Below, one piece after another: positions 4,786 to 36,305 of a stretch of 64,000 nt of DNA; the stretch's first letter is position 1, and every line of letters starts with the position of its first letter. The stretch spans positions 4,464,001-4,528,000 of the forward strand of contig NZ_CP016438.1 of NCBI RefSeq assembly GCF_001685355.1, given 5' to 3'. Below the pieces are notes generated by a model. It made no database searches and had not been told where the DNA came from. It was given only the letters and a program-made list of their open reading frames with translations. Source of the DNA: Streptomyces lincolnensis. Its GTDB lineage: Bacteria > Actinomycetota > Actinomycetes > Streptomycetales > Streptomycetaceae. The translations under genes were made by a program, and so were the position numbers.

Positions 4786-5835
4786 TCAGAACGTCAGCAC
4801 CCCCCGAGCCACCCGGCCCGCCTCCGCGTCCCCCGCCGCCTTCTCGAAGTCCTCGACGGGATAGGTCTGCGTCGCCAACTCGTCCAGCAGCAGCCGCCCC
4901 TGCCGGTACAGCTCGGCGTAGACCGCGATGTCCCGCTGCGGCCGCGACGACCCGTACCGGCAACCCAGGATCGACTTGTCCAGGTACATCGACGAGACCA
5001 GGAAGGACGCCTCGGCGCCCGCGGGCGGGACGCCGAGGAGGATCGCCTGTCCATGGCGGTCCAGCAGGTCGATCGCCTGCCGGATCAGCTCGACCCGCCC
5101 GACGCACTCGAAGGCGTGGTCCGCCCCGGTGGGCAGCAGGTCCCGCACCCCTTCCGTCGAGGTCAGGAAGTCGGTCGCGCCGAACGTCCGGGCCACCGCC
5201 TCCTTCGCGGGGTTGGCGTCCACGGCCACGATCCGCAGCGCGCCCGCGATGCGCGCGCCCTGGATGACGTTGAGCCCGATCCCGCCCGTGCCGATCACCA
5301 GCACACTGTCCCCCTGCCTCACCCCGGCCCGGTTCAGCACGGCACCGACCCCGGTCAGCACCCCGCACCCGATGAGCGCGGCCGACGGCATCGGGATGTC
5401 CTTCGGGATCCGCACCGCCTGCACGCCCCGCACCACGGTCCGTTCCGCGAAGGCGGAGTTGGACGCGAACTGGAACACCGGCTGCCCGCCCCGCGTGAAC
5501 GGCCGCCCCGGCCGCCCGATCGCCTGCCGGCACATCGTGGGCCGCCCCCGGTCGCAGTCGGCGCAGGCCCCGCAGTTGGCGAGCGTGGACAGGGCCACAT
5601 GATCCCCGGGGGCCACATGCCGCACCCCCGCGCCCACGGCCTCCACCACCCCGGCGCCCTCATGCCCCAGCACCACAGGAACCGGGAAAGGTATGGTCCC
5701 GTCCACCACAGACAGGTCGCTGTGGCACAGCCCCGCCGCCGAGATCGCGACCTGCACCTCACCGGGCCCGGGATCCCGTACGACGAGATCGTCCACGACC
5801 TCGACCCGCTTGCCGTCGAACACCACGCCACGCAT
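4786..5835 (-). CDS. zinc-dependent alcohol dehydrogenase (MDR family)
   Basis: 349 residues with a complete medium-chain dehydrogenase signature. Catalytic zinc ligands are seen in GLCHSD, GHEGAGVVE and IGCGV; a structural-zinc loop has four cysteines (CGACADCDRGRPTMC); the Rossmann motif is VLVIGTGGIGLNVIQ. It should oxidise an alcohol or reduce an aldehyde with NAD(P). The ATG at 5835 shares its A with the TGA of the upstream acyl-CoA dehydrogenase (TGATG), so the two are translationally coupled. It is the last gene of the SDR, acyl-CoA dehydrogenase, alcohol dehydrogenase unit. The substrate is probably an alcohol intermediate of the same catabolic route. Confidence 0.9.
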   Translation of the reverse strand: MRGVVFDGKRVEVVDDLVVRDPGPGEVQVAISAAGLCHSDLSVVDGTIPFPVPVVLGHEGAGVVEAVGAGVRHVAPGDHVALSTLANCGACADCDRGRPTMCRQAIGRPGRPFTRGGQPVFQFASNSAFAERTVVRGVQAVRIPKDIPMPSAALIGCGVLTGVGAVLNRAGVRQGDSVLVIGTGGIGLNVIQGARIAGALRIVAVDANPAKEAVARTFGATDFLTSTEGVRDLLPTGADHAFECVGRVELIRQAIDLLDRHGQAILLGVPPAGAEASFLVSSMYLDKSILGCRYGSSRPQRDIAVYAELYRQGRLLLDELATQTYPVEDFEKAAGDAEAGRVARGVLTF

Positions 5836-6989
5836 CACACAGCCCCGCCCTTCGGCTCCCTCGGCAGACCGAGCACGCGCTCGGCGATGATCGTGCGCTG
5901 GATCTGGTCGGAGCCGCCGTAGATCGTGTCGGCGCGCGAGAACAGGAACTGCCGCTGCGACTCGTCCAGTTCGTACGGCGCAGAGGCCGACCACTCCCCG
6001 GGCCCCACCGCCCCCGCCGCGCCCCGCACCAGCATCGCCAGCTCCCCCAGCCGCTGATGCCACCCGCCCCACAGCACCTTGGCCACACTCGGCGCCCCCT
6101 GGTCCCCCGAACCCCCGAGCGTCCGCAACGCGTTCCACCGCATCACCCGCAACTCGGCCCACTGCCGCACCAGCCGCTCCCGTACGACGGAGTCCCGCAC
6201 CGCGCCGGTCGCCACGGCCAGCTCCACGACCCGCCCCAACTCCCGTGCGAACCCGATCTGCTGGGCCAGCGTCGACACCCCCCGCTCGAACCCGAGCAGA
6301 CTCATCGCGACCCGCCAGCCGCCCCCCTCGCCCCCCACCACATGCTCCGCACGCGCACACGCCCCGTCGAAGAAGACCTCGTTGAACTCACTCGTCCCGG
6401 TCATCTGCCGAATCGGCCGCACCTCGATCCGCCCCGGCTGATCCATGGGAACGAGCAGAAAAGTCAGCCCGCGGTGCCGCCGCGACTCCGGATCGCTGCG
6501 AGCGAGTACGAAGCACCAGTCCGCCTCCTGCGCGAGCGACGTCCAGATCTTCTGCCCGCTGACCCGGTACGTCCCGTCCGCGCCCCGCTCGGCCTTCGTC
6601 CGCACCCCCGCCAGATCCGACCCGGCACCCGGTTCGCTGTACCCCTGACACCACAGCTCGTCCCCGGCCGCGACCGGAGGCAGAAACCGCGACTTCTGCT
6701 CCTCCGTCCCATGAGCCAGCAGCGTCGGAGCCAGCAGATTCTCCCCAATATGCCCCGACCGCGAAGGCGCCCCCACCCGCGCGTACTCCTCGGCCCAGGC
6801 GACCTGCTGAGTCAGCGTGGCACTCCGATTGCCATATCCACTCTCCGGCCAACCCAGCCCGATCCACCCGGACTTGCCGAGGGTCCGCTCCCAACTCCGA
6901 CGGTCGGAGGCCCCCTCGACATGAGCCGCAAGCCACTCCCGCGCCTCACCCCGGAACACCTCATCCTCACCAGTGAACCCAAACTCCAC
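5835..6989 (-). CDS. acyl-CoA dehydrogenase family protein
   Basis: 384 residues with the usual N-terminal helical, middle beta and C-terminal helical domains. Signature segments are GYSEPGAGSDLAGVRT (FAD/substrate loop), SGQKIWTSLAQEADW and the C-terminal DQIQRTIIAERVLGLPR. It should introduce an alpha,beta double bond into an acyl-CoA with FAD. The GTG at 6989 is chosen because GAGAGGAGAG lies about 7 bases upstream; an open frame extends further but has no homology. The SDR gene upstream is separated by a copy of the intergenic repeat. It is translationally coupled to the alcohol dehydrogenase. Confidence 0.9.
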   Translation of the reverse strand: MEFGFTGEDEVFRGEAREWLAAHVEGASDRRSWERTLGKSGWIGLGWPESGYGNRSATLTQQVAWAEEYARVGAPSRSGHIGENLLAPTLLAHGTEEQKSRFLPPVAAGDELWCQGYSEPGAGSDLAGVRTKAERGADGTYRVSGQKIWTSLAQEADWCFVLARSDPESRRHRGLTFLLVPMDQPGRIEVRPIRQMTGTSEFNEVFFDGACARAEHVVGGEGGGWRVAMSLLGFERGVSTLAQQIGFARELGRVVELAVATGAVRDSVVRERLVRQWAELRVMRWNALRTLGGSGDQGAPSVAKVLWGGWHQRLGELAMLVRGAAGAVGPGEWSASAPYELDESQRQFLFSRADTIYGGSDQIQRTIIAERVLGLPREPKGGAV

Positions 6990-7028
6990 GAGGGCTCTCC
7001 TCTCAACACCGGTCGAGTCAGCCAACCC

Positions 7029-7099
7029 AGGGGCGCGGGGAACTGCGCGAACAACCACGAACCACCCGCAGCCGCCCGTGGACAGAACCCCCCGAGCTC
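7029..7099. repeat. Streptomyces intergenic repeat, single arm
   Basis: AGGGGCGCGGGGAACTGCGC followed by a CCACGAACC/CCCGCAGCCGC block and ending CCCCCCGAGCTCTTAG, where the last bases are the reverse stop codon of the SDR gene. The same unit recurs as an inverted pair at 18807-18924 and in shorter form at 26318-26345 and 42455-42526. It probably forms part of a hairpin or terminator and is a dispersed repeat of unknown function. Confidence 0.7.
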
Positions 7100-7978
7100 T
7101 TAGGCATCCGGCCCCCGCACAAGCAACGGCATAGGATCCACCCCCACAGACCCCGGCAAAACCTCCGAGATCATCTCCGGAGTCCAGGACCCGCCGGAGG
7201 CATACACAGCCCGCAACTCCCTCGGCTGCGCCCACACCGCAATCTTCGCCCCCGCAACGGTGTACACCTGCCCGGTAACCCCCAGAGCCCGAGCCGCGTC
7301 GGACAACAGATAGACCACCAGCGCCGCCACATCCTCCGGCTCACCGATCTCCACCAACCCGCCCGGCACCTTCGCCGACATCCGCGTACGAGCCACCGGC
7401 GCCACCGCGTTCGCGGTCACCCCGTACTTGTGCAGCCCCAGCGCCGCACTGCGGACCAGCGAGATCACCCCGCCCTTCGCCGCGCTGTAGTTGGCCTGGG
7501 AGACCGACCCCTGGTGATTCCCACTGGTGAATCCGATGAGCGTCCCGGCCCGCTGCTGCCGCATCACCGCGGAGGCGGCCCGGAACACGGTGAACGTGCC
7601 CTTCAGATGCGTGGCGATGACCGGGTCCCACTCCTCCTCGGCCATGTTGAACAGCATGCGCTCGCGCAGGATCCCGGCGACGCACACCACCCCGTCGAGC
7701 CGCCCGAAGGAGGACAGCGCGACATCGACGACCCGCTGCCCGCCCGCCATCGTGGAGATGTCGTCGGCGACGGCGACCGCTTCCCCGCCGGCCGCCTCGA
7801 TCTCCTTCACCACGCCCGAGGCGATCTCACTGGTGGGGGACGCTCCGTCCACGGAGACGCCGTAGTCGTTGACGACGACCTGCGCCCCTTCGGCCGCCGC
7901 GGCCAGGGCCACCGCCCGGCCGATACCGCGCCCGGCACCCGTCACGGCGACGACCTTGCCTGCCAAGAAGTTCCCCAC
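7100..7978 (-). CDS. SDR family NAD(P)-dependent oxidoreductase
   Basis: 292 residues. The classic short-chain dehydrogenase pattern is present: TGAGRGIGRAVAL cofactor motif at residues 14-26, an NDYG loop at about 37-40, catalytic Ser in FTSGNHQGS, and YSAAKGG with the active Tyr and Lys near residue 168. An extended loop after beta-2 (GVSVDGASPTSE) resembles hydroxyacyl-CoA dehydrogenase-like SDRs such as MaoC-linked types. It likely oxidises a 3-hydroxyacyl-CoA or a cyclic alcohol. The start is the ATG at 7978, facing the cyclase gene across an 84-base region that contains two palindromes of the block-wide operator type. Confidence 0.88.
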   Translation of the reverse strand: MGNFLAGKVVAVTGAGRGIGRAVALAAAAEGAQVVVNDYGVSVDGASPTSEIASGVVKEIEAAGGEAVAVADDISTMAGGQRVVDVALSSFGRLDGVVCVAGILRERMLFNMAEEEWDPVIATHLKGTFTVFRAASAVMRQQRAGTLIGFTSGNHQGSVSQANYSAAKGGVISLVRSAALGLHKYGVTANAVAPVARTRMSAKVPGGLVEIGEPEDVAALVVYLLSDAARALGVTGQVYTVAGAKIAVWAQPRELRAVYASGGSWTPEMISEVLPGSVGVDPMPLLVRGPDA

Positions 7979-34314: not shown

Positions 34315-34454
34315 AGGAACCCGCTCCCTCCCTGCGTACGCCTTGATCCCGATCTTCCTACGGCGATCCTGATGGATGCCTCAGGACTTACGGGCCGCCG
34401 CTAGCAGCAAGATCGGCTATGCGTTCGACGATTCAGGATCTTTCGCACGAACGA

Positions 34455-34800
34455 GCGCCATCGACTGATTCAGTCGATCACTGACGGCTTGGTCATTAGC
34501 GTTGCTTGCACCCTTCGGAAAGGAGGTCACTCGCTCCCCAACGCAGGTTGCCGAGTGACCAGCCCCAGTCATCACGATCCCCAAGATCAGGGAGGTGCCC
34601 CGATGACTACGTTCCCCGCAGGTGAGTAGACCCACCAGGCTGTGCTTCCTCAGCAGCCTGCTCTGGAATCCGTGGGAGCAGACACCCCCGGGAGCAGGGA
34701 CGAAACGGCTCACGGACATCCCGCCACCGCGCGGGACACCGGCCGGGAACATGGGCGAGGGGAGACCGACGGGCGCGGTGACGCTCCCCCGCACAACCCG
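34455..34800 (+). ncRNA. structured leader upstream of the iscB remnant; candidate omega RNA (HEARO)
   Basis: IscB proteins use an RNA encoded just upstream of their gene. This stretch is rich in potential stems: ATCGACTGA/TCAGTCGAT (34460-34478), GGTCACTCG/CGAGTGACC (34525-34560), AGTCATC/GATGACT (34567-34608) and TCCGTG/CACGGA (34669-34716), and no frame has good coding bias except a short minus-strand one. The position and folding potential fit a HEARO/omega RNA, but similarity to a known one was not tested. It may be as decayed as the protein. Confidence 0.35.
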
Positions 34801-34827
34801 CCGTACACCGGCGGCATCGGCGCGAGC

Positions 34828-36045
34828 AGAGTCTTCGTCCTGTCCAAGGACGGACACCCGCTCATGCCCTGCCACCCCGCCCGCGCCCGGGAACTCCTCG
34901 GCAAGGGACGGGCCGTGGTCGCCCGACAAGTACCCTTCGCCATTCGGCTGCGTCGACCCCGGCTCCAAGGGCACGGGTCTCGCCCTCACCGACGAGAAGA
35001 AGGAAGTCGACGCGCACGGCGCCGTCGTCACCGTCAGACGCGGGCTCACAGCACTGGAACTCCAGCACCGCGGCGACCAGAACCACCGATCCATGCAGCA
35101 GCGTGCCGGTTACCGACACCGGCGGCGCTCCGCCAACTGCCGCTACCGAGCCCCTCGCCCAGACAACCGACCGCGCCCCGCAGGATGGCTCCCACCCTCC
35201 CTGCGCCACCGCGTCGACACCACCTATTCCCAGGCAGCACGCCTCTGCCGCTACGCCCCCGCCACCGAGATCCACATCGAACGCGTCGCCTTCGACACCC
35301 ACGCCATGAGCGCGGGCAGACCCCTCACCCAAGCCGAGTACCAGCAAGGCACACTCGCCGGAACCGAAGCCCGCGCCTACCTCCACGCCAAGTGGAACCA
35401 CTCCTGCGCCTACTGCGACGCCACCGGCGTACCCCTGAACATCGACCACCTCAGGCCCCGCAGCCAAGGAGGGTCGAACCGCATCTCCAGCAGGTGAGAA
35501 CGCCCCTCCATGACGCCGCCGCCATGAACGCGACCCGTTGGCAGCTCACGGAAACCCTCAGCGACCTCGGCAAGCCGGTACACGCCTGGTCAGGCGGCCG
35601 TACGAAGTGGAACCGCAGCGCCATGGGACTGGAGAAGACCCACACCCTGGACGCGCTGTCGGTCGGGCGCCTGAATCATCAGAGCGGCGACGCCATCGTG
35701 CGGTTCCCGGGGCAGGTGCTCAACGTCAAAGCCACCGGTCGCGGATCGTACGCCCGCACCACTCCGGACCGCTTCGGGTTCCCACGGCTCCGCCGGGCCC
35801 GCACCAAGCAGCACTTCGGGTACGTCACCGGGGATCTTGTCCGGGCCCATGTACCGACCGGCAAGTGGGCAGGCACATGGACCGGGCGCATCTCCGTCCG
35901 CGCCAGGGGGCAACACAGCCTCACCACACCGAGGGGTCGTATCAACGTCTCCCACCGGAATCTGAGACTGCTGCAACGGGGCGACGGATACGGCTACAGC
36001 ACCCGGCAGGAACTCTCAGAGTCAACTTCTCAAAAAACCGGTTGA
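34828..36045 (+). pseudogene. iscB: IscB (OMEGA) RNA-guided nuclease, decayed by deletions and frameshifts
   Basis: Homology runs across two frames. Frame A (34828-34950): RVFVLSKDGHPLMPCHPARA through VPFAIRL, the PLMP domain. Frame B (34952-35497): RuvC-I VDPGSKGTG (Asp codon 34955), Arg-rich bridge segment YRHRRRSANCRYR, GWLPPSLRHRVDT, RuvC-II IERVAFDTH (Glu codon 35279), HNH start CAYCDATGVPLNIDHLRPRS (Cys codons 35405 and 35414, His 35447), then TGA. Frame A again (35491-36045): TPLHDAAAMNATRW, SGGRTKWNR, RuvC-III HTLDALSVG (Asp codon 35650) and a C-terminal TAM-interacting-type domain GDLVRAHVPTGKWAGTW to LLQRGDGYGY. The linker after PLMP and the second half of the HNH domain are missing at the frame junctions. 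No normal start codon precedes PLMP. Sequencing error cannot explain the missing segments. No TnpA-like transposase is adjacent. Confidence 0.85.
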
Positions 36046-36103
36046 TCCGTGCCGGACCTCTTCCTAAGGTGTCGCTTACGCATGAGAGGAGGTGATCGGG
36101 TAC

Positions 36104-36142
36104 ATGAGTGAAACCCGGACGCGCGAGGTGGCTGCGGGCTAG
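36104..36142 (+). CDS. possible 12-codon leader-type ORF with perfect Shine-Dalgarno
   Basis: ATG at 36104 is preceded, 6 bases away, by AGGAGGTGATC (36087-36097), an 11-base perfect complement of the 16S rRNA 3' end. The frame encodes MSETRTREVAAG and stops. No gene follows on this strand, so it is either a small peptide gene, the 5' stump of a deleted gene, or chance. Its 3' half can form a GGTGGC/GCCACC stem (36127-36154). Confidence 0.3.
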   Translation: MSETRTREVAAG

Positions 36143-36177
36143 CGGCTCGCCACCACACCTAGTGCGGTGCCGGACCA

Positions 36178-36305
36178 GCGTGTGCGCGAAACACGCAGCC
36201 GGCCCAAACCAACGCAGTCACCCGACCCGCGAGCTCGCCGGTAACGTCCGGCCGGCTCCCCAGCCGTCAGGCGGGGGAACCCGAGTTCGCGGGTCGTCTG
36301 CGTTG
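36178..36305. terminator. long imperfect hairpins downstream of citrate synthase
   Basis: CAACGCAG (36210-36217) plus CCGACCCGCGA pairs with TCGCGGGTCG plus CTGCGTTG (36298-36305), giving a large stem of about 20 pairs with bulges, 12 bases from the citrate synthase stop. A second stem, GCGTGT/ACACGC (36178-36196), flanks it. The natural reading is the terminator of the minus-strand citrate synthase gene, though the size is unusual. Confidence 0.5.

Follow-up and report, generated by a model that had tools for sequence, protein, structure and literature searches.

What kind of element left a broken IscB gene in the chromosome of Streptomyces lincolnensis, and is the gene a lone fossil or one copy among many? 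The window, here the whole stretch of 64,000 nucleotides that was analyzed, probably holds the recently broken copy of a chromosomal homing unit that is made up of IscB and its omegaRNA and travels with a resistant allele of its neighboring gene, as judged from sequence comparisons.

The broken iscB gene

The original prediction, a decayed IscB split over two reading frames with its expected parts still recognizable, was confirmed by profile matches, structural matches and alignment to relatives. The gene lies at 34828-36045 on the plus strand, and consecutive model parts are matched in alternate frames: Pfam RRXRR (PF14239) at 1-42 in the frame of ORF 34642 and at 56-174 in the frame of ORF 34622, and NCBIfam guided_IscB (NF040563) at 57-222 in the second frame and at 247-314 in the first again. 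Among PDB chains, the two ORFs match those of IscB and one of IsrB. The PLMP motif is found at 34858, and the acidic RuvC residues are all encoded in the sequence where predicted (D at 34955, E at 35279, and D at 35650). DNA alignment with four intact relatives (L027, L033, L079, and L081; 78-81% nucleotide identity) shows just two gaps, one of 47 bp following 34949 and one of 100 bp following 35485, with zero further indels in the gene; a raised gap penalty was used, and the open reading frames agree with the result. The predicted losses of a linker and of the second half of HNH correspond to these gaps, the first removing the linker before RuvC-I and the second removing the part of HNH that the intact relatives have. 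Because 47 and 100 add up to 147 bp, the first frame is restored after the second gap, leaving three fragments:

34831 to 34949, plus strand: iscB fragment 1, PLMP domain, in the frame of ORF 34642-36045 (85% amino acid identity to L027 core residues 1-41; PF14239 1-42)
34950 to 35485, plus strand: iscB fragment 2, RuvC-I, arginine-rich region, RuvC-II and HNH first half, in the frame of ORF 34622-35497 after the 47-bp deletion (75% identity to L027 core residues 57-236)
35486 to 36045, plus strand: iscB fragment 3, RuvC-III and C-terminal domain, in the first frame after the 100-bp deletion (79% identity to L027 core residues 258-453)

These pieces are 75-85% identical to the L027 protein, and the range for 23 other open copies compared is 61-84%. 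The copy in the window has the PLMP/RRXRR N-terminus of an IscB, three RuvC motifs with their acidic residues, and a HEARO/omegaRNA directly upstream, and lacks a complete HNH within RuvC and a single ORF. By its sequence, it is a pseudogene of an IscB ancestor, unable to make the whole protein. Since it carries only two lesions and appears otherwise undamaged, the sequence suggests that the pseudogene is young and was broken recently. In the source genome (10.32 Mb, one contig), no RRXRR match was found besides the two pieces in the window and no second HEARO match at E <= 0.001; there are five guided_IscB matches, of which all three among the matches listed fall in the window and the remaining two are weaker.

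Setting and distribution in Streptomyces

A census of 392 Streptomyces genomes, in which matches above the curated cut-off were counted as strong, found strong IscB in 40 genomes. In 23 of these, the source genome included, iscB lies immediately upstream of the small RNA gene Ms_IGR-5; copies in this position are called resident and copies elsewhere mobile. The other 17 genomes have their strong copies elsewhere (one of them, G177, keeps a resident remnant too), and G049 and G097 carry both resident and mobile IscB. Relative to the L027 protein, identity is 61-100% for open resident copies and 46-58% for mobile copies, with lower values for broken resident copies (48% in G321). Named resident carriers include S. 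griseoruber, S. violaceus, S. gelaticus, and S. adelaidensis. A survey of the family (249 genomes in 17 genera, E <= 1e-60) gave matches in nine genomes of two genera; those of the second genus are 58-60% identical, and the loci fetched for them contain no Ms_IGR-5 leader.

The resident unit is usually found between a PAS-GNAT gene pair and citA-pdxH, so that the predicted position between a GNAT gene and citrate synthase is indeed the usual one, but the link to Ms_IGR-5 is stricter than that to citrate synthase: citA-pdxH is flipped in six loci (L080, L086, L087, L088, L037, and L038) and lies elsewhere in L035, and Ms_IGR-5 stays with iscB. Comparison of the same locus in other Streptomyces, which had been proposed as a check, revealed intact copies in many genomes and unit-free sites in others. 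The claim of a nuclease fossil in a Streptomyces core region thus stands as far as the broken IscB is concerned, but it is not a lone fossil, and an isolated dead insertion is rejected because intact copies sit at the same site elsewhere. The unit or a remnant is present in 20 of the 100 loci fetched, which were chosen partly for having iscB, so this proportion is no estimate of frequency. Remnants of iscB were also seen at L115, L116, L153, L090, L092, and L078, in genomes that lost an intact resident copy; several consist of just the C-terminal end beside the Ms_IGR-5 promoter.

The further suggestion that the losses show which parts went first did not hold up. There are only two deletions in the window, and other broken resident copies lost other parts (the middle in G252, more than the first half in G295, a piece near the C-terminus in G125, and most of the body in G253). 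Decay order as a clock for the losses was dropped for this reason.

The upstream parts of the unit

The feature as first delimited is too small, since a left block, a guide, and an omegaRNA upstream of the gene belong to it as well, the guide being the informative part:

34396 to 34478, plus strand: left block travelling with iscB (TAGCAGCAAGATCGG...TTCGCACGAACGAGCG; nhmmer 64.1 bits, E 6.2e-18)
34497 to 34502, plus strand: TAGCGT, a box resembling a -10 element, 7 nt upstream of the guide; an alignment of upstream regions made by eye shows it conserved across the resident clade (putative promoter function)
34510 to 34525, plus strand: 16-nt guide ACCCTTCGGAAAGGAG of the omegaRNA, abutting HEARO model position 1
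34526 to 34770, plus strand: omegaRNA scaffold (HEARO, RF02033, a model matched over its whole length at 62.3 bits and E 1.1e-11, short of the gathering score of 83)

An intact resident unit thus consists of the left block, a short promoter-like stretch, the 16-nt guide, the omegaRNA, and iscB, in total about 1.8 kb. The left block, which covers about 80 nt upstream of the guide, is present in 21 of the 138 sequences searched, every one with iscB or its remnants; at six iscB loci (L021, L035, L038, L075, L088, and L187) it gave no nhmmer match at E <= 0.01. No -35 element was identified upstream of the guide for the TAGCGT box. Among 12 other Streptomyces iscB loci searched for HEARO, 11 score 42-67 bits, all below the gathering score, and L210 gave no match; the omegaRNA in the window is therefore not visibly decayed, its score being comparable to those of other iscB loci. 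HEARO starts with GTCACTCGC or a variant, the preceding base being the last base of the guide, and the Rfam start agrees with this boundary in the window and nine other loci (in L211 it lies 27-28 nt further in).

Two resident units have an unusual upstream region. In L035 (Streptomyces sp. SID13726), a piece resembling the left block is fused straight to the omegaRNA, with iscB open and the guide seemingly gone. In L086 (G182), a 613-aa ORF at 5331-7172 lies within the omegaRNA region and, by eye, is presumably a group II intron reverse transcriptase.

The Ms_IGR-5 gene and its two target sites

Downstream, the unit runs directly into the Ms_IGR-5 gene, in which the following parts are recognized:

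36042 to 36070, plus strand: promoter-like pair TTGATC-N17-TAAGGT of the Ms_IGR-5 gene (aligned in sequence with unit-free G342, 67/79 identical; putative promoter function)
36076 to 36091, plus strand: target site A of the resident IscB clade (Ms_IGR-5 leader and Shine-Dalgarno), followed by GTGATC; best-match place in other genomes for 26 of 28 guides
36078 to 36302, plus strand: Ms_IGR-5 small RNA gene (RF02471; 64.1 bits, gathering score 45)
36104 to 36142, plus strand: predicted 12-codon small ORF MSETRTREVAAG within the Ms_IGR-5 gene
36112 to 36127, plus strand: target site B within the small ORF, followed by GTGGCT; place of exact matches of the G222 (nine loci) and G129 (one locus) guides in other genomes

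The iscB stop codon (36043-36045) lies inside the -35 of the promoter-like pair. When the source genome is compared with its unit-free relative G342, homology resumes at AAAAAACCGGTTGATCC, so that the last iscB codons and the stop fall in the Ms_IGR-5 promoter region. The distance from the iscB stop to site A is 46 nt in the window; of 28 loci scored, the window among them, 13 have a distance of 45-47 nt and 15 gave no reliable value. The start codon of the small ORF and its GAGGTGRCTG end belong to a pattern matched in 149 loci, several genomes being counted twice.

The leader and the small ORF also form a covarying 4-bp helix (CACG/CGTG, CTTC/GAAG, CCGA/TCGG, and CGTA/TACG), which is absent from the Rfam consensus line. 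It is fully paired in 74 of 119 loci, compared with a mean of 24 and a maximum of 35 in 2000 shufflings (two registers allowed, relatedness ignored), and its strands fall in sites A and B (36076-36091 with 36112-36127 in the window). In published work, Ms_IGR-5 is visible in S. lividans RNA-seq and is an sRNA unit of S. avermitilis (PMC8079986, PMC8780764). Identification of the small RNA with scr2736 was withdrawn, as a table in PMC8079986 has the two as separate genes; from locus-tag order alone, scr4389 would be a guess.

Guides match the Ms_IGR-5 genes of other genomes

Thirty guides were read, and 28 of them (21 distinct) were compared with the Ms_IGR-5 of 119 loci and used in the permutation tests, those of L086 and L092 being added later. 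Guides were unreadable in seven loci (L035, L044, L078, L087, L089, L090, and L188), where the 5' part is lost or altered. For 25 of the 30, the best match to the Ms_IGR-5 of another genome has at most 2 mismatches, and six (G049, G212, G252, G129, G222, and strain S3) match exactly; five have no close target in the sample (G215 with 4 mismatches; G039, G537, G564, and G335 with 3 each). The guide in the window matches the leaders of other genomes with 2 mismatches at best (4 of 118 loci), versus 8 mismatches to its own copy.

In the 28-guide set, 290 guide-locus pairs have at most 2 mismatches, 252 at site A and 38 at site B, the site B guides coming from G222 and G129. The six bases that follow these matches are GTGGTT, GTGGCT, GTGATC, or GTGACT (GTGRYY); the constant GTG is no independent evidence, because GTG (site A) and GAGGTG (site B) were built into the pattern used to search for the gene. 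The match stops at 16 nt, since the 17th base agrees in only 2 of 41 exact guide-locus pairs (pairs share targets). As a control, 1500 16-mers with a G[GA]AGG[TC] end were taken from the fetched loci, from which target sites and guides had been excluded; at up to 2 mismatches none of them matched any of 113 targets, and at up to 3 mismatches 11 did.

One guide together with GTG (CACACGAGAAGGGAGGTG) occurs exactly once in each of 61 of the 392 genomes, and the reversed control occurs in one. Twelve of the 61 occurrences fall in fetched loci, every one at site A, and the others are unplaced. The string was not found in G049 and G212, the carriers of that guide, where the mismatch-free hits of the guide are the guide loci alone, without GTG, and three further places have 3 mismatches. 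None of the 23 resident carriers is among the 61 genomes (hypergeometric 0.018, ignoring relatedness); in G128, the leader departs from the pattern at its first base alone. Loci within 2 mismatches of at least one known guide comprise 65 of the 79 unit-free loci and 30 of the 40 loci with the unit or a remnant.

A mere ribosome-binding site or promoter duplicate was also considered for the sequence preceding the omegaRNA; the exact 16-nt ends, the guides for site B, and the 0/1500 controls speak against this candidate.

The allele of the host itself

The guides fit the Ms_IGR-5 of their own hosts far less well, with 4-9 mismatches in 30 of 30 cases. Shuffling the 28 guides leads one to expect about 5.3 with at most 3 own mismatches when all loci are used and 3.2 among carriers; the observed zero has a permutation p of 0.0016 and 0.020, respectively (relatedness ignored). 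In the mean-mismatch version of the test, which likewise ignores relatedness, p is 0.0034 for all loci and a borderline 0.061 among carriers. Within their last 8 nt, the 26 guides for site A have only 0-2 mismatches to the allele of their host, so self-immunity would come mostly from the half of the guide far from GTG. At the level of sequence, guides thus match the alleles of others and mismatch their own, which makes the carrier allele putatively resistant.

Reciprocal pairs number three among the 378 pairs compared (G275/G372, G212/G128, and G222/S. adelaidensis). In each of them the guide and allele types are swapped; the iscB genes of the first pair are 90% identical. Guide types are also switched between G049 and GKU895, sisters at 98% support in the IscB tree.

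Selection and conflict between trees

Median dN/dS over 105 pairs of resident iscB is 0.22 (range 0.15-0.35), compared with 0.06 for citA, 0.12 for PAS, and 0.16 for pdxH; judged by these sequence ratios, resident IscB is under purifying selection. All 24 copies compared retain the RuvC residues, the HNH Asn, and the HNH cysteine pairs; the HNH His has become Tyr in L077.

In AU tests on 15 genomes, the IscB data reject the flank, citA, and PAS trees (p-AU 2e-57, 2e-66, and 6e-33), and the citA, PAS, and flank data each reject the IscB tree. The citA data are compatible with the combined flank tree, which contains citA, and the PAS data reject neither the citA nor the flank tree (p 0.09), but the citA and flank data reject the PAS tree, indicating that the locus recombines anyway. 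The IscB tree nevertheless conflicts with citA and PAS far more than citA and PAS conflict with one another. This conflict implies that IscB changed hosts yet kept its place: horizontal spread at a fixed locus is supported by the tests, which do not separate guided spread from other recombination.

Mobile copies and the missing transposase

The mobile copies of Streptomyces serve as a control. Their sites are scattered; judged by eye (L003, L175-L194), most of the elements have a Shine-Dalgarno on one side and the ATGA start codon of a gene directly downstream. G257 has at least five copies. Three of them (L190, L191, and L193) lie before one gene and have guides ending in GAGGAGTACCCAAGGG, AAGGAGCACCAAGGG, and GAGGAGACCTAGGG; insertion-free loci of that gene read, e.g., GAGGAGTACCAAGGG or GAGGAGACCTAGGG right before ATGACG in 16 of 30 fetched, the 16 being those caught by the pattern used. 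The guide-boundary rule thus holds in these mobile relatives, the guides being the same as, or nearly the same as, the sequence before insertion. At that gene, the former Shine-Dalgarno region serves as the guide, and the element supplies a new Shine-Dalgarno.

No Y1 transposase lies beside iscB in the window, and the only match in the source genome is 4.36 Mb away; the unit therefore lacks the Y1 tnpA that marks an IS200/IS605 element. Among the 12 resident-carrier genomes tested, five (G153, G104, G007, G222, and G129) have no Y1 transposase.

Explanations of the resident unit

Homing would account for the fixed place beside Ms_IGR-5, kept even where citA-pdxH was flipped or moved, and for guides that fit the alleles of other genomes, a mismatched own allele, conflicting trees, and retained function. 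In such a cycle, the omegaRNA would be transcribed from the -10-like box, a sensitive allele would meet the unit through mating, merodiploidy, or DNA uptake, and IscB would cut the sensitive Ms_IGR-5 allele. Repair from the carrier chromosome would then copy the unit together with the linked resistant allele, as in intronless homing; guides and alleles would chase each other, with guides switching, and copies that have gone to fixation or run out of targets would decay, as the copy in the window may have done. Counted against homing are the near fit of site A guides to their own allele in the last 8 nt, the borderline mean-mismatch result among carriers, the five guides without a close target, the finding that loci with the unit or a remnant are matched by other guides about as often as unit-free loci, and the general recombination of the locus. 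The left promoter and guide could also be a duplicated leader.

The strongest rival, which we consider unlikely, is that of an ordinary IscB element that inserted once at the Ms_IGR-5 leader, the guide recording the allele in which it landed; inheritance, drift, and general recombination would explain where the unit is now present or lost, with no guided homing. The mobile relatives before one gene behave in this way, their guides resembling the sequence before insertion and the elements ending in a replacement Shine-Dalgarno; by eye, the distance between the -10-like box and the guide is similar to the spacing in the target gene, and rejection of the PAS tree on citA data indicates recombination at the locus in any case. 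The guides of three mobile relatives equal or nearly equal the flank of the empty site, and resident guides resemble the Ms_IGR-5 of other genomes, two of them at site B. Counted against this rival, those two guides, of G222 and G129, fit site B over exactly 16 nt and yet are preceded by the left promoter context rather than the start of the small ORF, a combination that is impossible from a single insertion at site A. Guide types have switched in related copies (G275/G372; G049/GKU895), and the discordance of IscB far exceeds that between citA and PAS.

Nuclease-dead relatives of TnpB act as regulators, and resident IscB with its omegaRNA could by analogy bind and control the small RNA gene beside it in its own host, particularly as iscB adjoins that gene, site A covers the leader and Shine-Dalgarno, and the guides for site A come close to fitting the allele of their host in their last 8 nt. 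Such domestication is nonetheless highly improbable given at least 4 mismatches to the own target in 30 of 30 cases, RuvC and HNH residues kept in 24 copies (except for the His to Tyr change in L077), and a unit missing from 79 of 119 loci. Slightly less probable still is a defense system whose guide protects the host from plasmids or phages with Ms_IGR-5-like sequence, for although a chromosomal RNA-guided nuclease under purifying selection would suit it, the target is a chromosomal gene found in 99 of the 100 loci fetched, and the exact target string (one pattern) occurs in 0 IMG/VR contigs.

Comparison with known systems and significance

The usual proposal for the natural role of IscB is transposon retention. 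The resident unit resembles IscB/OMEGA systems with HEARO (NF040563, RF02033) in its PLMP, split RuvC with HNH insert, and C-terminal domain, and in an omegaRNA directly upstream with a 16-nt guide at its 5' end and a short motif 3' of the target. It differs in that the guide belongs to a conserved unit with a promoter-like box and is aimed at the neighboring host gene in other strains, and in that no Y1 transposase lies beside the unit in the window. Mobile Streptomyces IscB share the family (46-58% identity to L027), the HEARO RNA, and the guide boundary with resident copies but occupy scattered sites.

Among phages, free-standing endonucleases spread by intronless homing, in which the nuclease gene lies beside the gene that it attacks, an immune allele is linked to it, and repair spreads both. 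Resident iscB likewise adjoins its target gene and is linked to a mismatched, putatively immune allele, and would likewise be spread by repair, but an RNA guide sets its specificity and the setting is bacterial chromosomes. RNA-guided homing has been proposed for TnpB (PMC12477157) and a plasmid gene drive by TnpB reported (PMC11870625). As in these IS200/IS605 systems, RNA-guided cutting of the element-free allele would favor the element. The guides of the TnpB described there (PMC11870625, PMC12477157) record the insertion site of the element itself; the resident unit, by contrast, can switch its guide from one to the other of two sites in one conserved gene and is linked to a mismatched allele. 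A report of resident IscB tracking the alleles of a neighboring gene was not found in the literature searched, which mostly excluded subscription journals.

A bolder form of the homing reading, which we regard as evenly balanced between true and false, is that the unit forms a natural chromosomal RNA-guided gene drive that re-programs its 16-nt guide against the alleles of other lineages at two sites, the strands of one covarying helix, and carries a resistant allele, with lineages targeting each other reciprocally. The 30 natural guides can be paired with their likely targets and with the mismatched alleles of their hosts, and such natural pairs give access to guide length, flanking motif, mismatch tolerance, and guide turnover. 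If homing is true, resident IscB would be a chromosomal RNA-guided gene drive, which could explain the sharply different allele types of the Ms_IGR-5 leader.
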